In this document: positions 3,608 through 9,290 of the stretch, piece after piece | Numbering within the stretch: the first letter of the stretch is position 1 | Layout of the letters: each line of letters starts with the position of its first letter | From: Chloroflexota bacterium | GTDB taxonomy: Bacteria; Chloroflexota; FW602-bin22; JAMCYS01 | Length of the DNA: 9,541 bases | Assembly (NCBI GenBank): GCA_021847625.1 | Contig: JAJZQK010000085.1 | Span: 1 to 9,541 of the forward strand | Direction of reading: 5' to 3' | The notes under the pieces: generated by a model | What the model was told of the DNA's origin: nothing | The model's input: the letters and a program-made list of their open reading frames with translations, nothing else | Databases searched by the model: none | Translations under genes and position numbers: made by a program

Positions 3608-4717
3608 CTAGGGCTCGGCGACAGCATTCGCCCGTCGGACGGAGCCGTCGCCATTGAACAGTCTTCGCCTCAACCACAGCGAGACGTAGACCAGGCTGAT
3701 CAGCACCGGCACCTCGATCAAGGGCCCCACCACTGCCGCCAAAGCCTGGCCCGAGGCGATGCCGAACACGCCCACCGCCACGGCGATCGCCAGCTCGAAG
3801 TTGTTGGAGGCCGCCGTGAACGACAGCGTCGTCGCCTGGCCGTAGGGGAAGCCCATCTTCCACGACATGAAGTAGGAGACGGCAAACATAATGGCGAAGT
3901 AGGCCAAGAGCGGGATGGCGATGCGTACCACGTCCAGCGGCAGCGCCAGGATGACCTCACCCTTGAGCGAGAACATCACGACGATGGTGAACAACAGTGC
4001 CAGCAGCGCCGTCGGCGCCAGCTTGGGCATGAAAACCCTATCATACCACTGCTTGCCGCGCACCTTGATGCCCACGTAACGGGTGATCACGCCGGCCGCC
4101 AGGGGAATGCCCAGGAAGATGAGAACGGATTTGGCGATGTCCCAGAACTCGATCCGGATCGCCTGGCCCGCGCCTAGTCCCAGCCACGTCGGCAGTAGGG
4201 TGATGAAGAAGTAGGCCAGCACCGAGTAGAACAGCACCTGGAACACGGAGTTGAGGGCCACCAGCACGGCGCAGTACTCGTTGTCGCCGTCGGCCAGCCA
4301 GTTCCAGATGAGCACCATGGCGATGCAGCGCGCCAAACCGACGAGGATGAGTCCCGTGCGATACTCCGGCAGGTCGGGCAAGAGCAGCCAGGCCAGAGCG
4401 AACATAATCACCGGCCCGACTAGCCAGTTCTGAACCAGTGAGACGGCGAACATCCGCCAGGCGTTACGGACCTTGCCCAGTTCCTCGTACTTCACCCGGG
4501 CCAGCACCGGGTACATCATCCAAAGGAGACCCAGGGCGATGGGCAGCGAGACGGTGTCGAGGCGGGCCGAGTCCAGGGCGTCGGCCACGCCGGGGTAGAC
4601 GTAGCCCAGCCCTAGTCCCAGGGCCATGGCCACGAAAATCCACAGCGGCAGCAAGCGGTCGAGCGTCGAGAGTCTCTTGGCCGCGCTCGCCTGCGCGGTC
4701 GGGTTGGGTTGAGCCAT
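3608..4717 (-). CDS. acr3: Arsenite efflux transporter Acr3
   Basis: This 369-aa polytopic inner-membrane protein of the ACR3 (bile/arsenite/riboflavin transporter) family exports arsenite, As(III), using the proton motive force. The sequence shows about ten hydrophobic segments. It has the diagnostic A-R-C-I-A-M-V stretch, with the functionally conserved Cys at residue 131 and W-N just after. A second conserved segment, N-N-F-E-L-A-I-A, has Glu308 in the position of the essential Glu of this family. Length is normal for ACR3. It starts 24 nt after the arsR stop and is presumably co-transcribed and derepressed by As(III) through ArsR. The ribosome site is somewhat unusual: GGAGG touches the ATG directly and a second AGGAGG lies 11 nt upstream. 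Confidence 0.95.
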
Positions 4718-4741: not shown

Positions 4742-5113
4742 CTAACGAACGCTGCGAACCCGGCAGGAGACCGGCCGCGGGTCCGTCTGCGAGGTATCCA
4801 ACAGGCCCTGGAGCGCCTGCCGCAGATGCGCCGTGCCGGCCTCATCCAGCGAATAATAGACCCAGCGGGCATCGTCGGGATCGCGGCGGTCGCGCACCAA
4901 CGCGGCCCGTTTGAGTACGGCCATGTGGTGGGAGATCGTGCCCTGGCTGAGGCCGAGTTCCTCGGTCAGGTGGCAGACGCACTGCTCGCCCTTGCGCAGC
5001 AGCACGAATATGCGCAGGCGCACGGGATCGGCCAACGCCGAGAGTCCGGCCCACAGAGCAGCCTCTACAGGCGGATCCACCTCACGCTGCCGCTGCGCAA
5101 CACGTCCTGACAA
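4742..5113 (-). CDS. arsR: ArsR-family arsenite-responsive repressor, TTG start
   Basis: This winged-helix repressor of the ArsR/SmtB family has 123 aa. The As(III)-binding Cys-Val-Cys motif is at residues 45-47, at the start of the DNA-recognition region, followed by L-S-Q-G-T-I-S-H-H-M and the R-x-G/R-type wing (W-V-Y-Y-S-L). A further Cys at 117 near the C-terminus could act as an extra ligand. I chose TTG 5113: GGAGG (5123-5119) sits 5 nt upstream, and the predicted transcript starts only about 20 nt earlier. The farthest upstream ATG (5221) lies upstream of the promoter and so cannot be in this mRNA; it would also add 36 residues unlike the family. The protein likely represses its own operon (arsR, acr3, phosphoesterase). 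Confidence 0.93.
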   Translation of the reverse strand: MSGRVAQRQREVDPPVEAALWAGLSALADPVRLRIFVLLRKGEQCVCHLTEELGLSQGTISHHMAVLKRAALVRDRRDPDDARWVYYSLDEAGTAHLRQALQGLLDTSQTDPRPVSCRVRSVR

Positions 5114-5128
5114 GATGTCCTCCGGTAG

Positions 5129-5144
5129 ATTGATTGCTATTAAT
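5129..5144 (-). promoter_or_regulatory. Candidate ArsR operator
   Basis: This is an imperfect dyad, ATTGAT-N4-ATTAAT (one mismatch between arms), in an A/T-rich patch. It overlaps the 3' half of the -10 box and the predicted transcription start. ArsR/SmtB repressors commonly bind such A/T-rich dyads overlapping the promoter. The assignment rests on position, symmetry and the adjacent arsR gene. Confidence 0.5.
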
Positions 5145-5170
5145 ATATCTCCAGGATGCCTTGCTGTCAA
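5142..5170 (-). promoter_or_regulatory. Promoter of the ars operon
   Basis: On the minus strand TTGACA (5170-5165) is followed after 17 nt by TATATT (5147-5142), one mismatch from consensus. The predicted start lies near 5135, giving a leader of about 22 nt before the arsR TTG. The promoter lies between the end of the redox cluster and arsR, so the ars genes form their own unit even though both read in the same direction. Confidence 0.82.
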
Positions 5171-5229
5171 GAGGAGGAGAGAAGAGCCACAGGATGGTGG
5201 TATCCGCCAATGGGGGCTCATTCAGCGAC

Positions 5230-5543: not shown

Positions 5544-6065
5544 TTAGCTGTCCATCCCCAGCCACTCGGCCAGCAGAGCGCGGTTGCGGTCGTACTCCGC
5601 CTCTGCCAGGCGCGGGCAGTCCCGCAGCCCTGCCTCGCCGAAGATGAGTCTGCCCGCCAGTGCGACGCAGGTGGCCTCGCCGCACTCCCGGCAGTTGCCG
5701 CCGGGCAGAAGCCGGTAGACGTCGAAGAGGCGTGGCGAGCGGCGGCGCTCGCGCACCGGCGTCAGCTCCTCCCTCCGCGCCCAGGCCTCGTTGATGCGCC
5801 CGCGCAGCCACTCCAGCACCGCCCGGGCGTCGTCCTCGTCCAGCGCCTTGGCCAGGGTAACGATCCGCGGGTAGACCGTCAGCAGCCGGCCCTCCTTGAC
5901 CATTGTGAGGATGGCGGCGTCGTGGTTGTAGCCGGCCTGGGGTAACAGCGCCGCCAGGTAGGGCAACGCCTCGCCCACATCGCAGGATATCTCGGCCACC
6001 ACCCGAATCCTCTCCGCATCGGCCAGGCAGTCCATCACCTGGGAAATGCGTATCTGAGCCACCAA
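5544..6065 (-). CDS. 4Fe-4S domain protein (RnfB/CFeSP-type Fe-S motif)
   Basis: A 173-aa predicted soluble protein. The C-terminal quarter carries a C-x2-C-G-x3-C-x16-C-P motif (Cys125, 128, 133, 150), the pattern of the PF04060 4Fe-4S domain found in RnfB and in the large subunit of the corrinoid Fe-S protein. The N-terminal two-thirds (about 1-105) is a helical domain that I cannot name, with conserved-looking stretches such as Y-L-A-A-L-L-P-Q-A-G-Y-N-H and D-E-D-D-A-R-A-V-L-E-W-L; Cys13 and Cys28 lie there. No other redox domain is attached, so the protein probably passes electrons to or from a partner in the cluster. The start is TTG 6065 or the adjacent GTG 6062; the only upstream ribosome-like sequence is GGAA about 9 nt before the TTG, so the start is not firm. 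It follows the candidate selenoprotein by 44 nt. Confidence 0.82.
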   Translation of the reverse strand: MVAQIRISQVMDCLADAERIRVVAEISCDVGEALPYLAALLPQAGYNHDAAILTMVKEGRLLTVYPRIVTLAKALDEDDARAVLEWLRGRINEAWARREELTPVRERRRSPRLFDVYRLLPGGNCRECGEATCVALAGRLIFGEAGLRDCPRLAEAEYDRNRALLAEWLGMDS

Positions 6066-6109: not shown

Positions 6110-6481
6110 TTAGGCCCCGTTCACGAGCTGCGCCCCCATCTTGTCCAGCAACTTGCAGATCATCGGCGTCGAGATGCCTCCGGCGAACCGCGGCCTGCCG
6201 GCAATGCTCACAAGAGGCAGCGCCAACCCCCGCGTGCTGATCAAGCGCAGAACGTCCAAGTGCGACTCGAACATCACGGGCGAGAAGATGTCCACGTATT
6301 CGACCGTAACCCCTTCGCCGTAGCGCGAACCCAGCTCGTCGGCCAAGGTGGCCGCCTGCTGCTCTATCGTAGTTTCCTCGGTGCCGCAATCTGACCCACA
6401 ACTTGGGCCACTTTGCGAGCCTCAGCCACAGCTCTGCAGGGGTTGCTCGCTACCGAATACGTGTACCTTGATCGTCTCCAA
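6110..6481 (-). CDS. Candidate selenoprotein: thioredoxin-fold protein with Cys-Gly-Sec active site
   Basis: This frame has an in-frame TGA at codon 20 (6424-6422). Read as selenocysteine it gives 123 aa. It begins with a beta strand (I-K-V-H-V-F-G-S-E), then S-C-G-U-G-S with Cys18 and Sec20, then Cys28 and Cys32. A helix, a second strand (V-T-V-E-Y-V-D-I, 58-65), a cis-Pro-like L-P-L-V (88-91) and a G-G-I-S turn (101-104) follow. This is a thioredoxin-like layout, distantly recalling YuzD/DUF1462. The frame stays homologous-looking on both sides of the TGA, and a SECIS-like hairpin starts 3 nt after it. I chose TTG 6481 because GGAGG (6494-6490) lies 8 nt upstream; GTG 6508 and 6502 are alternatives. 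An ordinary gene call would start at Leu46 and lose the whole active site. If Sec is not inserted, this would be a pseudogene with a Cys-to-stop change. The upstream neighbour is a lipoyl protein, a plausible dithiol partner. Confidence 0.72.
6384..6424 (-). promoter_or_regulatory. Sec codon UGA and candidate bacterial SECIS hairpin
   Basis: UGA occupies 6424-6422. From 6418 to 6384 the mRNA folds as a lower stem of UCGCAA with UUGCGG (6 bp, one U-G), a 2x2 internal loop (AG/AG), and an upper stem of UGGCCCA with UGGGUCA (7 bp, one G-U). The apical loop is AGUUG, with G in its second position. The loop begins 18 nt after the UGA. Family knowledge: bacterial SECIS elements lie directly after the UGA, with a small apical loop bearing an early G about 16-37 nt downstream. 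This hairpin meets that pattern. I paired it by hand and did not compute energies. Confidence 0.65.
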
Positions 6482-6504
6482 ACTCCAACCCTCCCGTTCC
6501 ACAT

Positions 6505-6753
6505 TCACTCGCCGCAGCGGATGAGGGCAATCTCTTGCCCTACCGCCACCTTGCCCCCCTGGGGCACCAGGAGAAAGTCTACAACGCCTTCGACCTCGCT
6601 GCAAACCTCGAAGGTAGACTTGCGCGTCTCCACGACGTACAGCGGCTCGAAGCGCCGCACGTAGTCGCCTTCATGCTTGAGCCAGGTGATGAGCGTGTTG
6701 CGGTCCATCCGCGGGTGCAAGTAGGCCAAACGCACGACCTTGAGTTCACTCAT
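6505..6753 (-). CDS. Stand-alone lipoyl/biotinyl-domain protein
   Basis: An 82-aa protein made of a single lipoyl-type domain of the 2-oxoacid dehydrogenase E2 kind. The first half has L-I-T-W-L-K-H-E-G-D-Y-V, like the strand before the lipoyl turn. The hairpin V-E-T-R-K-S-T-F-E-V places the modifiable Lys at residue 45 (E2 consensus E-T-D-K-A), and E-G-V-V and G-x-x-V-x-V-G-Q-E-I follow as expected. There is no catalytic or subunit-binding domain, so it should act as a small swinging-arm carrier in the cytoplasm. It is the second lipoyl carrier in this cluster, and the only other dehydrogenase-like component seen here is the GcvH-like fusion. The start is probably ATG 6753 (GGAG 9 nt upstream); ATG 6768 is directly abutted by GGAGG. 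Biotin attachment is less likely because the M-K-M motif is absent. Confidence 0.85.
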   Translation of the reverse strand: MSELKVVRLAYLHPRMDRNTLITWLKHEGDYVRRFEPLYVVETRKSTFEVCSEVEGVVDFLLVPQGGKVAVGQEIALIRCGE

Positions 6754-6863
6754 CCCCGGCGTCTCCATCCTCCCTACTGTCCCTCTCCTGCGGGGCCTGG
6801 CTAAACGCCAAGCCCGCCGCCCGTGCCATTGTGCTGTCCCCCGAACAGCTCGACTGCGGTCTT

Positions 6864-7010
6864 TCAGCCGCCCTCGAAGAAGTCGTGGAGGCGCTTGCGG
6901 GCGTGCTCCTCGAGGAAGGCAAAGGCGTCCTCCTGATCCCGATCCAAGAGGATGCGGTACAGCCTGATCGCCTCAGCCTCCGTCACGCTGACCACGAAGC
7001 GGCGGTCCAC
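6864..7010 (-). CDS. Small conserved protein, paralog of the one at 5230-5409
   Basis: A 48-aa protein of unknown function if started at GTG 7010, one base beyond the stop of the upstream DGC gene, which suggests translational coupling. An AAGG lies 9 nt upstream. ATG 7049 would give 61 aa but has no ribosome site and would overlap the DGC gene. The core R-I-L-L-D-R-D-Q-E-D-A-F-A-F-L matches the 59-aa protein of this cluster, and the alignment is ungapped over 42 residues. It lacks Cys, so it is unlikely to bind metal or take part in thiol chemistry. It ends in F-F-E-G-G before TGA. About 110 nt follow before the lipoyl gene. Retention of two copies in one cluster suggests an interaction role. 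Confidence 0.78.
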   Translation of the reverse strand: MDRRFVVSVTEAEAIRLYRILLDRDQEDAFAFLEEHARKRLHDFFEGG

Positions 7011-7011
7011 C

Positions 7012-7710
7012 TCAGTCTGCCTTCGCCCGATCCGCCAGATAGGCGCCATAGGCCGCCGCGAGCGCCGCCGTGAAGAGCCCCTCCTCAGCCGCGACGATGG
7101 GGTGGTATACCTTCGTCACCGCCAGCAGGCGCGGGCCGCAGGCGTCGTCGGCCGGCAGCCCCGCCGCCGCCATACGCTCGAAGATCAGCGGCAAGGCCGT
7201 GACCTCCACCCGCCTGCCGTCGACCACTAGCTCGCCTCCCGGGAGGGGCTTGGCGCACTCACATCCTGCCTGCTCGTCCTCGGCCAGATCGACGATGGCC
7301 GGCCGGCCCAAGCGGTCCACCTCTTCGGCGATCCGCCCGGCGATCAGGTCGATCGCGGCCAGGTCGTCGTCCGTCAGCCGGCGGGCGGAAACCTCGCCGC
7401 TCACCCGCTGCCCCGTTTGGCCGAGGATGTCGGAGACGACCAGCGCCGCGCCCACGGGGCCGCTGTGCATCTCGGTGCCGCATTTGGCGCAGGCTTTGCC
7501 GCAGCCGTCGACGGTGATCGTCGGATAGGTGCGGGCGAAGGCGCGCTCGCCCTCGCCGCCGGCCAGGAAGAGCGGCAGGCAGATGGTGACGGTGCGTCCG
7601 GGACGCAGTTCCTCCAGCACCTTGCGCGCCGCCAGGCGCGAGATCGTGCCCTCGCAGAGGTCTTCGCCGCTGCAGGAGACGATGCCGACCTTCAGCGTTT
7701 GCCCTTCCAT
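7012..7710 (-). CDS. DGC-domain (putative zinc-binding) protein with C-terminal extension
   Basis: A 232-aa protein. The N-terminal domain (about 5-95) is a DGC domain (PF08859-like), named for its D-G-C motif: Cys13 in V-S-C-S-G, Cys44, the D-G-C at 68-70, then Cys74 and Cys77 (C-G-K-A-C-A-K-C). This Cys set could bind zinc or a thiol/persulfide cofactor; function is unproven in the family. The extension (about 100-232) has a Cys-Glu-Cys at 150-152, a lone Cys191 and a helical end (A-A-L-A-A-A-Y-G-A-Y-L); I do not recognise it. The ATG at 7710 directly abuts the stop of the upstream DGC gene, and AAGGAGG lies 5 nt before it. It is the second of three DGC proteins in the cluster by size, and the last in transcription order. 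Confidence 0.82.
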   Translation of the reverse strand: MEGQTLKVGIVSCSGEDLCEGTISRLAARKVLEELRPGRTVTICLPLFLAGGEGERAFARTYPTITVDGCGKACAKCGTEMHSGPVGAALVVSDILGQTGQRVSGEVSARRLTDDDLAAIDLIAGRIAEEVDRLGRPAIVDLAEDEQAGCECAKPLPGGELVVDGRRVEVTALPLIFERMAAAGLPADDACGPRLLAVTKVYHPIVAAEEGLFTAALAAAYGAYLADRAKAD

Positions 7711-8118
7711 CTAGCCCTCCTTCTGTGCCGCGAGCAGGCGGCGCGCCGCGGCTACCAACTCGCCCGCAATCTCGTCCGAGATTGTCCAGCCCTCGTCGGT
7801 GAGGGCGGTCGCCGTCCCTGCCTGGGCCCCCTTGTGCGCCTTGAAGGCGTCGACCACGCGCTGGCTGTGGCCGATCCTGCCCCCCGCCAGCTCGACGTTC
7901 TTCTGGGCGCACAGCTTGGGGCAGCCATCCAAGGTGATGCAGGGGTTGGCCCGCACGGCCGCCACCGCCTCTTCGTCGCCGGGCACCAGGAGCGCTAGAC
8001 AGATGGTCCGGGCCGCCCCGTCCAGACGCCGCACGGCCTCGAAGGCGGCCTCGCGGCCCATCAACCCATATACTTTGCCGATGCCGCTGCACGGCACGAT
8101 CAGTACCTTCTCACTCAT
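7711..8118 (-). CDS. DGC-domain (putative zinc-binding) protein, short form
   Basis: A 135-aa protein that is essentially one DGC domain: M-S-E-K, then V-P-C-S-G (Cys10), Cys40, Cys60, D-G-C-P-K-L-C (64-70) and a helical C-terminus. Its N-terminus closely resembles that of the lipoyl fusion protein just upstream (M-S-E-K..., P-C-x-G, D-G-C-x-x-x-C), so the two arose by duplication. The ATG at 8118 has only a distant GAGAGG (about 12 nt), a weak ribosome site, after a 33-nt gap. Its stop codon abuts the start of the next DGC gene with no spacer. The Cys residues suggest metal, persulfide or thiol handling; no catalytic activity can be assigned. Confidence 0.85.
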   Translation of the reverse strand: MSEKVLIVPCSGIGKVYGLMGREAAFEAVRRLDGAARTICLALLVPGDEEAVAAVRANPCITLDGCPKLCAQKNVELAGGRIGHSQRVVDAFKAHKGAQAGTATALTDEGWTISDEIAGELVAAARRLLAAQKEG

Positions 8119-8151: not shown

Positions 8152-9006
8152 TCAACCCTTGTACTCGGCTGCCTTCTCTCGCAAGTGCGCCAGGTACTGC
8201 GGCCCGTCCAGCAGCAGCTCCCGCTCGGCCGCGAAGTCCGCGAGCTCCAGCTCGACAATCCACCCCCGCTCGTAGGGGTCCTCGTTCACTAGCTCGGGAG
8301 CATCCATGACGGCCTGGTTGGCGGCCACCACCCTGCCCGAGACGGGAGAGACGACCTCGAAGGTGGCCTTGCTCGATTCCACCGTGCCCGCCTCGCCGAA
8401 CTGCTCGACGTCGCTGCCTACCGTGGCTGGCGTGCAGAAGAGGATGTCGGTGAGGCTCTGCTGCATGAAGTCGCAGATGCCGACGCGGGCGCGGTTGCCG
8501 CTGACCCGCACCCAGCAATCGTTCTCGTCGAAGAAGAAGCCCTCGGCAGGTACCCGGAAGATGAACTTGTCGTGGGTCAGGCTGAGATATCTCACCGGCG
8601 CCGTGAAGTCGGCCGTCGTCTCGGCCGGGGCGGCCGTCGTCGGCGCTGAAAGCAGCCCGGCGACGAGGGCCTGCGCGAAGGCGAGCCCACACGGCCCCGG
8701 CACGAGCGAGCCCTCGACGTCGGTTCCCGCGGCCTTCAGCGCCTCGGCGACCTGAACCTTGCGCGCCACCGCCAGACCATGGTCGGCGGCCAGGCGACTG
8801 GCGCAGCGGGTGGCACAGCCGTCGATGACGAACAACGGCAGCTCGCCAAGTACCTTGGCGTAGCGCGCCTGCGACCTTCCCAGCAGCACCGGGCATACCA
8901 GCTCGCCCCCGGCCGCTTCCAGCACTTGAAGTGCCACCTCGCGGGAGAGCGCGCCCTCGGGTTTATCCAGCCCGTTGCAGGGCAGGTAAGCGTACTTCTC
9001 GCTCAT
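8152..9006 (-). CDS. Fusion of DGC domain and GcvH-like lipoyl protein
   Basis: A 284-aa two-domain protein. Residues 1-115 form a DGC domain: P-C-N-G with Cys10, Cys38, D-G-C-A-T-R-C at 62-68 and Cys106. An Ala/Thr/Pro-rich linker (about 118-136) follows. Residues 138-284 are like glycine-cleavage H protein: R-V-G-I-C-D-F (174-180), then E-S-S-K-A-T-F-E-V with Lys213 as the lipoylation site, S-P-V-S-G (220-224) and P-E-L-V-N-E-D-P-Y-E-R-G-W (237-249). No glycine cleavage P, T or L genes are nearby, so a role in glycine cleavage is unlikely. GcvH-like lipoate-binding proteins are known to work with Hdr-like complexes in sulfur oxidation (LbpA/sHdr), and an HdrA-N-like gene and ferredoxin lie just upstream. 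The ATG overlaps the ferredoxin stop (ATGA), indicating translational coupling. Confidence 0.88.
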   Translation of the reverse strand: MSEKYAYLPCNGLDKPEGALSREVALQVLEAAGGELVCPVLLGRSQARYAKVLGELPLFVIDGCATRCASRLAADHGLAVARKVQVAEALKAAGTDVEGSLVPGPCGLAFAQALVAGLLSAPTTAAPAETTADFTAPVRYLSLTHDKFIFRVPAEGFFFDENDCWVRVSGNRARVGICDFMQQSLTDILFCTPATVGSDVEQFGEAGTVESSKATFEVVSPVSGRVVAANQAVMDAPELVNEDPYERGWIVELELADFAAERELLLDGPQYLAHLREKAAEYKG

Positions 9007-9290
9007 GCTTCCGCCCCTTTGGCACGCAGCTCCTTGATTAGCATCGTCGTCTCCGCCTTGTCGGGGAAGGAGAGAGCGTCGGGCCCGCAGGTCTTGGCGC
9101 AGGCGCGGCAGAAGACAACGCAGTTGTTGGGGGTGGCGACCACTAGCTTAGTGTCGCCCTCCTGGCGCTGGAAGACGCCGTGGGGGCAGAACTCGTCGCA
9201 CTCCAGGCAGAAGTTGCACTTGGCGTAGTCGATGACGGGCGCCCAGGGGATGAGATCGCGGGGCACGCCCATGAAAGTGTTCTCAGCCAT
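9003..9290 (-). CDS. Ferredoxin-like 2x[4Fe-4S] protein
   Basis: A 95-aa protein with two Cys clusters: C-x2-C-x2-C-x3-C-P (Cys25, 28, 31, 35) and an unusual C-x3-C-x2-C-x3-C-G (Cys57, 61, 64, 68). The second has three residues between its first two Cys and Gly instead of Pro after the last. Both can hold a [4Fe-4S] cluster, giving a small low-potential electron carrier. The N-terminal 20 residues (V-P-R-D-L-I-P-W-A-P-V-I-D) are more extended than in minimal clostridial ferredoxins. AAGGAG lies 8 nt before the ATG, only 3 nt after the HdrA-like stop, and the stop overlaps the start of the DGC-lipoyl fusion. It likely links the HdrA-like protein to the lipoyl/thiol proteins. Confidence 0.9.
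   Translation of the reverse strand: MAENTFMGVPRDLIPWAPVIDYAKCNFCLECDEFCPHGVFQRQEGDTKLVVATPNNCVVFCRACAKTCGPDALSFPDKAETTMLIKELRAKGAEA

Follow-up and report, generated by a model that had tools for sequence, protein, structure and literature searches.

Selenoproteins with a thioredoxin-like fold have been catalogued before: in the portion of PMC13188914 considered here, Table 1 (119 families) lists such proteins, one of them with a CxU motif, and PMC9312934, in the part used, is a further source on what is known. A thioredoxin fold is also found in YuzD, a DUF1462 protein (PDB 1XG8), and in ArsD. Here, we describe a gene for a YuzD-like protein of 123 residues, interrupted by a single in-frame TGA, in a window of 9,541 nt (the whole stretch of DNA that was analysed). 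We consider it quite probable that this TGA is read as selenocysteine (Sec). The joint reading, in which Sec is placed at the TGA of a YuzD-related thioredoxin-fold product with a C18-G-U20 motif, a hairpin serves as SECIS, and the product is an oxidoreductase in an arsenic module, also appears probable.

The candidate frame comprises 123 codons on the minus strand, with the TGA at residue 20 as its sole interruption. This is the single TTG-to-TAA frame that the preliminary description had proposed, and the landmarks named there were all found in the sequence: S17-C18-G19 directly before the TGA, C28 and C32 after it, L88-P89-L90-V91 in its place, and a GGGAGGG ribosome site 7 nt upstream of the TTG. 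Read with the standard code, this frame breaks into two ORFs, one of 60 aa (6604..6422) that terminates at the TGA and one of 78 aa that starts at TTG 6346. As had been anticipated, standard annotation therefore yields the 78-residue C-terminal part alone, without the active site. Since the 60-aa ORF begins upstream, inside the lipoyl gene, TTG 6481 is a chosen start. TGA is not a sense codon in general: among the 10 other genes with a stop inside the window, 4 use TGA for it, and no internal TGA occurs in any of 11. The features of the locus are given in the table below.

Features of the candidate gene and its neighbours, in minus-strand order
Feature	Position	Strand	Evidence or remark
HdrA N-terminal-like protein, cut by contig end	9294..9539	minus	62% identical over 76 residues to G019
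Ferredoxin	9003..9290	minus	74% identical over 89 residues to G019
DGC-GcvH fusion (lipoyl carrier)	8152..9006	minus	42% identical over 4-280 to G019 (L013:10888-11772)
DGC-domain protein	7711..8118	minus	Pfam
DGC-domain protein	7012..7710	minus	Pfam; 41% identical to syntenic G019 protein
Lipoyl carrier protein (Biotin_lipoyl)	6505..6768	minus	PF00364, E 4.4e-12; ends 23 nt before candidate
Shine-Dalgarno-like GGGAGGG	6489..6495	minus	7 nt before TTG 6481
Candidate selenoprotein gene, YuzD-like, thioredoxin-fold	6110..6481	minus	TTG to TAA, 123 residues, proposed Sec at 20
In-frame TGA, proposed Sec codon of C18-G19-U20	6422..6424	minus	Sequence
SECIS-type hairpin starting at TGA	6378..6424	minus	-22.8 kcal/mol; 7-bp upper stem; apical loop AGUUG (6403-6399), 18 nt after TGA
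78-residue fragment reported by gene calling	6110..6346	minus	TTG 6346 start (ORF list)
4Fe-4S protein with FeS domain	5544..6065	minus	PF04060; best NCBIfam likeness acetyl-CoA decarbonylase/synthase gamma, far under cut-off
ArsR/SmtB regulator	4742..5221	minus	NF033788 over cut-off
Acr3 arsenite efflux transporter	3608..4717	minus	TIGR00832 over cut-off

We examined codon usage before and after the TGA. The score of codons 1-19 is intermediate between those of coding and non-coding sequence (1,220 of 12,195 off-frame windows are as high and 186 of 2,439 in-frame windows as low), and for codons 34-45, 554 of 2,516 in-frame windows are as low. In both stretches, the candidate frame is the best-scoring of six, yet it stays under the average of real genes. 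Clearly abnormal usage is restricted to codons 21-33, beneath the hairpin, where a single in-frame window in 2,505 is as low.

YuzD emerged from a fold search. AF2 without an alignment gave a useless model (pLDDT 43.7), whose best Foldseek rows are not thioredoxins. Supplied with 48 ArsD rows, from 120 matches listed of 6,810, it gave a model of middling quality (pLDDT 65) with 1XG8 and ArsD structures among its Foldseek matches. Because this model leans on an assumed relation, we used it to point to YuzD and then tested that family by sequence comparison with three of four YuzD records, a second Listeria record having been dropped. Before the TGA, residues 3-18 match the first strand and catalytic Cys of YuzD without a gap. 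This best 16-mer scores 27.0 against the N-terminal block, which none of 20,000 shuffles of residues 1-19 equals. Within the window, that score is reached by 2 of 13,581 stop-free 19-mers and by 1 of 14,296 16-mers (six frames); since one 16-mer has it, the second 19-mer would be the candidate stretch shifted by one. After the TGA, a 45-residue block scores 34.0 (z 5.9), a value equalled by none of 20,000 shuffles and reached by no other of the 9,118 stop-free 45-mers in the window. In hmmsearch with a profile of the three YuzD sequences, the candidate obtained 15.8 bits, whereas none of 10,000 shuffles exceeded 7.4, the best of 11 ArsD proteins reached 9.6, and a Thioredoxin_3 control had 0.1; hhalign gave 88.7% for the pair, and identity to YuzD is 21-23%. 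Because the two halves align, without gaps and in the proper order, to successive parts of YuzD, the comparison says that both sides of the TGA belong to one protein, as the preliminary description had held, and it also supports the thioredoxin-type fold claimed there.

By the same comparison, the candidate is YuzD-like and not a YuzD. Pfam, PF07315 included, returned no family for it at E up to 10, and the CxxC active site is absent from it in the alignment with the three YuzD proteins. The earlier claim that the TGA falls exactly where a redox-active Cys is expected is not borne out by these three distant relatives, none of which carries a Cys at the TGA column; Leu15 occupies the position of the first Cys of their CxxC, and the candidate motif is a C-x-U built on the conserved Cys. 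The spacing is informative in this respect. The catalytic Cys and the Asp of strand β2 are 46 residues apart in the candidate and 32 in all three YuzD proteins, while the distance from that Asp to the cis-Pro is 25 in the candidate, 25 in two YuzD proteins, and 27 in one. The 14 extra residues hence sit between Cys and strand 2, the stretch that contains the TGA, with an edge that is not exactly fixed because MAFFT distributes them between a gap of 4 and a gap of 10. The TGA column thus falls inside an insertion absent from the three YuzD proteins, or borders on it, and we read this insertion as coinciding with the hairpin. Two observations concern YuzD itself. In a Listeria record (L056), yuzB follows yuzD, so YuzD has a context of its own. 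One of four members scanned of alignment A4 (the candidate plus three YuzD) matches the ArsD model weakly (E 0.078); it is not the candidate, which has no Pfam match. Judging from sequence, YuzD and ArsD may be related groups.

The SECIS-type hairpin had gone unmentioned and was found in our follow-up analysis. A segment made of UGA and the 44 nt that follow has a folding energy of -22.8 kcal/mol (z -3.71), a stability matched by 1 of 200 shuffles; for a 55-nt stretch, z is -3.18, and the 30-nt upper stem alone is unremarkable (z -1.61, 13 of 200 shuffles as stable). We compared it with the bacterial SECIS model of PMC13188914 (section 5, in the part of the paper used). The hairpin fits the strict bSECIS pattern, and its loop, 18 nt past the UGA, is within that model. 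This model is low in specificity: at the 190 TGAs of the GC-rich window, its loose form passes 70 times and the strict loop 35 times. Three of these 190, the candidate TGA included, are as stable. Among 2,483 in-frame windows of neighbouring genes, 98 reach the same stability, 22 of which fit the model too. Of 20,000 synonymous sequences that keep the peptide and follow local codon usage, 3,792 fold as well (z -0.84) and 590 also fit the strict model; with uniform codons, the corresponding numbers are 789 and 130. Five of 96 codon permutations fold as well as the hairpin, and Rfam has no match to it. Taken alone, the hairpin is modest evidence for Sec, and its weight comes from its location beside the Cys and within the insertion.

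We then searched widely for relatives. In 5.8 billion proteins, no close homolog of the joined 123-aa candidate was found and the only match was the 78-aa fragment itself, so there is no Cys/TGA column to compare. NCBIfam, with its selenoprotein models, had no model matching the candidate at E up to 10, under filters that drop most weak matches, and the viral and plasmid collections contained no relative. In 98 genomes of one phylum, there was no match at E up to 0.001. In 149 genomes of one phylum, E up to 10 returned 86 matches in 65 genomes (best E 0.0026), and all seven of the loci that were translated looked like noise. The A4 profile gave 36 matches in the same 149 genomes, partial ones with a best E of 0.00107, 28 of them in frames of more than 300 residues, and PF07315 was seen in one genome, under cut-off. 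The searched phylum is probably not that of the window, because ClpC is 54-59% identical over ten near-full-length matches (12 genomes of the searched phylum), with shorter stretches up to 68%; this ClpC may be of the kind found in Chloroflexota or Bacillota. The only match among genome contigs, L001, was rejected since it is prepilin-like by eye and shares IAGRPRFA with the candidate. A tRNA scan of the window found none.

The genes around the candidate point to arsenic. Upstream of it lie, in order, the HdrA-like, ferredoxin, DGC-GcvH fusion, two DGC, and lipoyl genes, and downstream the Fe-S protein, ArsR, and Acr3 genes; a 61-residue ORF between the DGC and lipoyl genes (6864-7049) has no Pfam or NCBIfam match. 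A matching set (HdrA-like, ferredoxin, fusion, and DGC) is found in genome G019 between acr3/arsR on one side and arsM plus an ArsE-type thioredoxin on the other; farther along the arsM side is an arsC-like gene, under its model cut-off. The name HdrA comes from a weak match of the G019 protein (E 0.00097, well short of the cut-off, no Pfam match). The arsenic island of G019 also has a second, shorter arsM-like ORF (L013:7222-7731), which the model matches from position 110 on. Searches with the candidate and with the A4 profile revealed no recognisable copy of the candidate in G019. In another genome, G002, a relative of the Fe-S protein (L019:4800-5606, 35% identical) has a weak Se/S-carrier-like N-terminus (PF11823, E 0.00043, under cut-off) and is near an arsR-like gene, recognised by eye, and a DGC gene. 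DGC is present in 3 of the 149 genomes of the searched phylum. No relative of the DGC-GcvH fusion was found in viral contigs, and among the best 20 of 150 matches in plasmids there was ordinary GcvH only. The fusion is thus accompanied by HdrA-like, ferredoxin, and DGC genes beside arsenic genes in both the window and G019, and this conserved set is, as far as gene content tells, a lipoyl-based arsenic module. We found no description of such a module in the literature on DGC, arsenic, and lipoate and on lipoate with ars operons.

Lipoyl dithiols bind As(III) tightly. In the mechanism that we propose, the hairpin starting at the TGA would act as a SECIS and recruit SelB, which would insert Sec at the TGA, and a C18/U20 selenenylsulfide would be the redox centre, with the dithiols of the lipoyl carriers as partners. 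The candidate could be a thiol/selenol oxidoreductase that moves electrons between ferredoxin, HdrA-like, or Fe-S proteins and the lipoyl dithiols, or an arsenical bound there. With electrons from the ferredoxin/HdrA-like branch, it would reduce lipoyl disulfides or free arsenic from lipoyl; meanwhile, Acr3 would export arsenite and ArsR would regulate. That the product serves the arsenic module in this role is likely, if less certain than Sec itself.

The main rival on function is that the product is not an electron carrier but an ArsD-like arsenic metallochaperone, in which C18, U20, and C28/C32 would be As(III) ligands. The ars operon suits this alternative, as do the ArsD structures among the Foldseek matches. 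In MAFFT alignment A1, C18 falls opposite the second member of the ArsD Cys pair and C28 opposite the third Cys, a place that A3 gives to C32, and few shuffles score as high as the candidate on ArsD profiles (1 of 2,000 and 3 of 5,000), which were drawn from 8 of 40 plasmid matches listed (of 2,125) and three of five genome loci, two partial loci having been dropped. However, the Thioredoxin_3 control outscores the candidate on the same profiles, hhalign gives 3% or 15% for ArsD against 89% for YuzD, and no arsA was recognised among the ORFs of the window. ArsD (PF06953) has no Pfam match in the candidate, which lacks a Cys-Cys pair with a third Cys, and we rejected ArsD as its family because the likeness is no greater than that of the Thioredoxin_3 control. 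On balance, arsenic binding of this kind is possible and rather unlikely.

As for the TGA itself, the strongest competitor of Sec is a broken gene or a sequencing error, i.e., a nonsense mutation in a YuzD-like gene or a sense codon misread as TGA. It would account for a TGA known from one metagenome contig, with no relative sharing it, for YuzD relatives without Cys at its column, and for a hairpin that is only modestly unusual. Yet both sides of the TGA still match the YuzD family, the ribosome site is present, and the neighbouring genes are intact, while a random nonsense change does not predict a TGA that falls together with a hairpin and a 14-residue insertion; we regard decay or error as distinctly unlikely. 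Highly improbable are two separate products, which match the ORF list but not the finding that both halves resemble one family in order, and which would start the ordinary 78-aa protein inside the first helix of the predicted models, without first strand and active site, and, equally so, read-through in which a near-cognate tRNA places Trp, Arg, or Cys, which is compatible with the sequence alone but not expected two residues from a conserved catalytic Cys, with a SECIS-type loop 18 nt on, in an operon where TGA is a normal stop.

If Sec is read at the TGA, the SECIS lies within a loop insertion adjacent to a catalytic Cys that has been retained, and selenium is linked to a little-studied lipoyl/DGC/HdrA-like arsenic module. 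Confirmation of Sec would add a selenoprotein family not found in the examined part of the 119-family table of PMC13188914. Searches for Cys-containing homologs might overlook this family, since no Cys stands at the TGA column in the relatives that were found. A bolder version is doubtful and, in our view, improbable: within the thioredoxin superfamily, the candidate would be the first seleno-member on the YuzD/ArsD side, its selenolate would take As(III) or methylated As from the lipoyl dithiols of DGC-GcvH and the lipoyl carriers, the HdrA-like/ferredoxin branch would reset these carriers, and the SECIS would have been acquired as a short in-frame insertion next to the original catalytic Cys.

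How does the locus compare with known systems? There is no YuzD or DUF1462 entry in the examined portion of Table 1 of PMC13188914, and we found no published report of the candidate, among the matches listed, in the literature on selenoproteins with arsenic, ArsD, Hdr, lipoate, or DGC or on YuzD/DUF1462; it is probably a selenoprotein in an arsenic module that this portion of the catalogue does not include. The Sec.1 thioredoxin-like selenoprotein (PF13192) of that table shares, by its description, a thioredoxin-like nature and a C-x-U motif with the candidate, which has no Pfam or NCBIfam match. In the SAO and Tso multi-selenoprotein operons (section 9 of PMC13188914, in the part used), selenoproteins also occur in operons, and the ArsR of the window matches the TsoR model, under cut-off and below the general ArsR model; here, in contrast, one TGA-containing gene was recognised, and no NCBIfam selenoprotein model matches it. 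The MTH895/ArsE-family thioredoxin (TIGR00412), a small thioredoxin that follows arsM beside the syntenic G019 module, differs from the candidate in having CxxC, no Sec, and 0.1 bits on the YuzD profile. ArsD has in common with it a thioredoxin fold, an ars operon, and a Cys-rich loop before helix 1, whereas the candidate lacks an adjacent Cys pair, arsA was not recognised in the window, and the profile match is not specific. Closest is YuzD (PF07315), which shares strand 1 with the catalytic Cys, the region from strand 2 to beyond the cis-Pro, and probably the thioredoxin fold; where YuzD has CxxC, the candidate has L15-Q-S-C18 and a C18-G-U20 motif instead, together with the 14-residue insertion and its hairpin.
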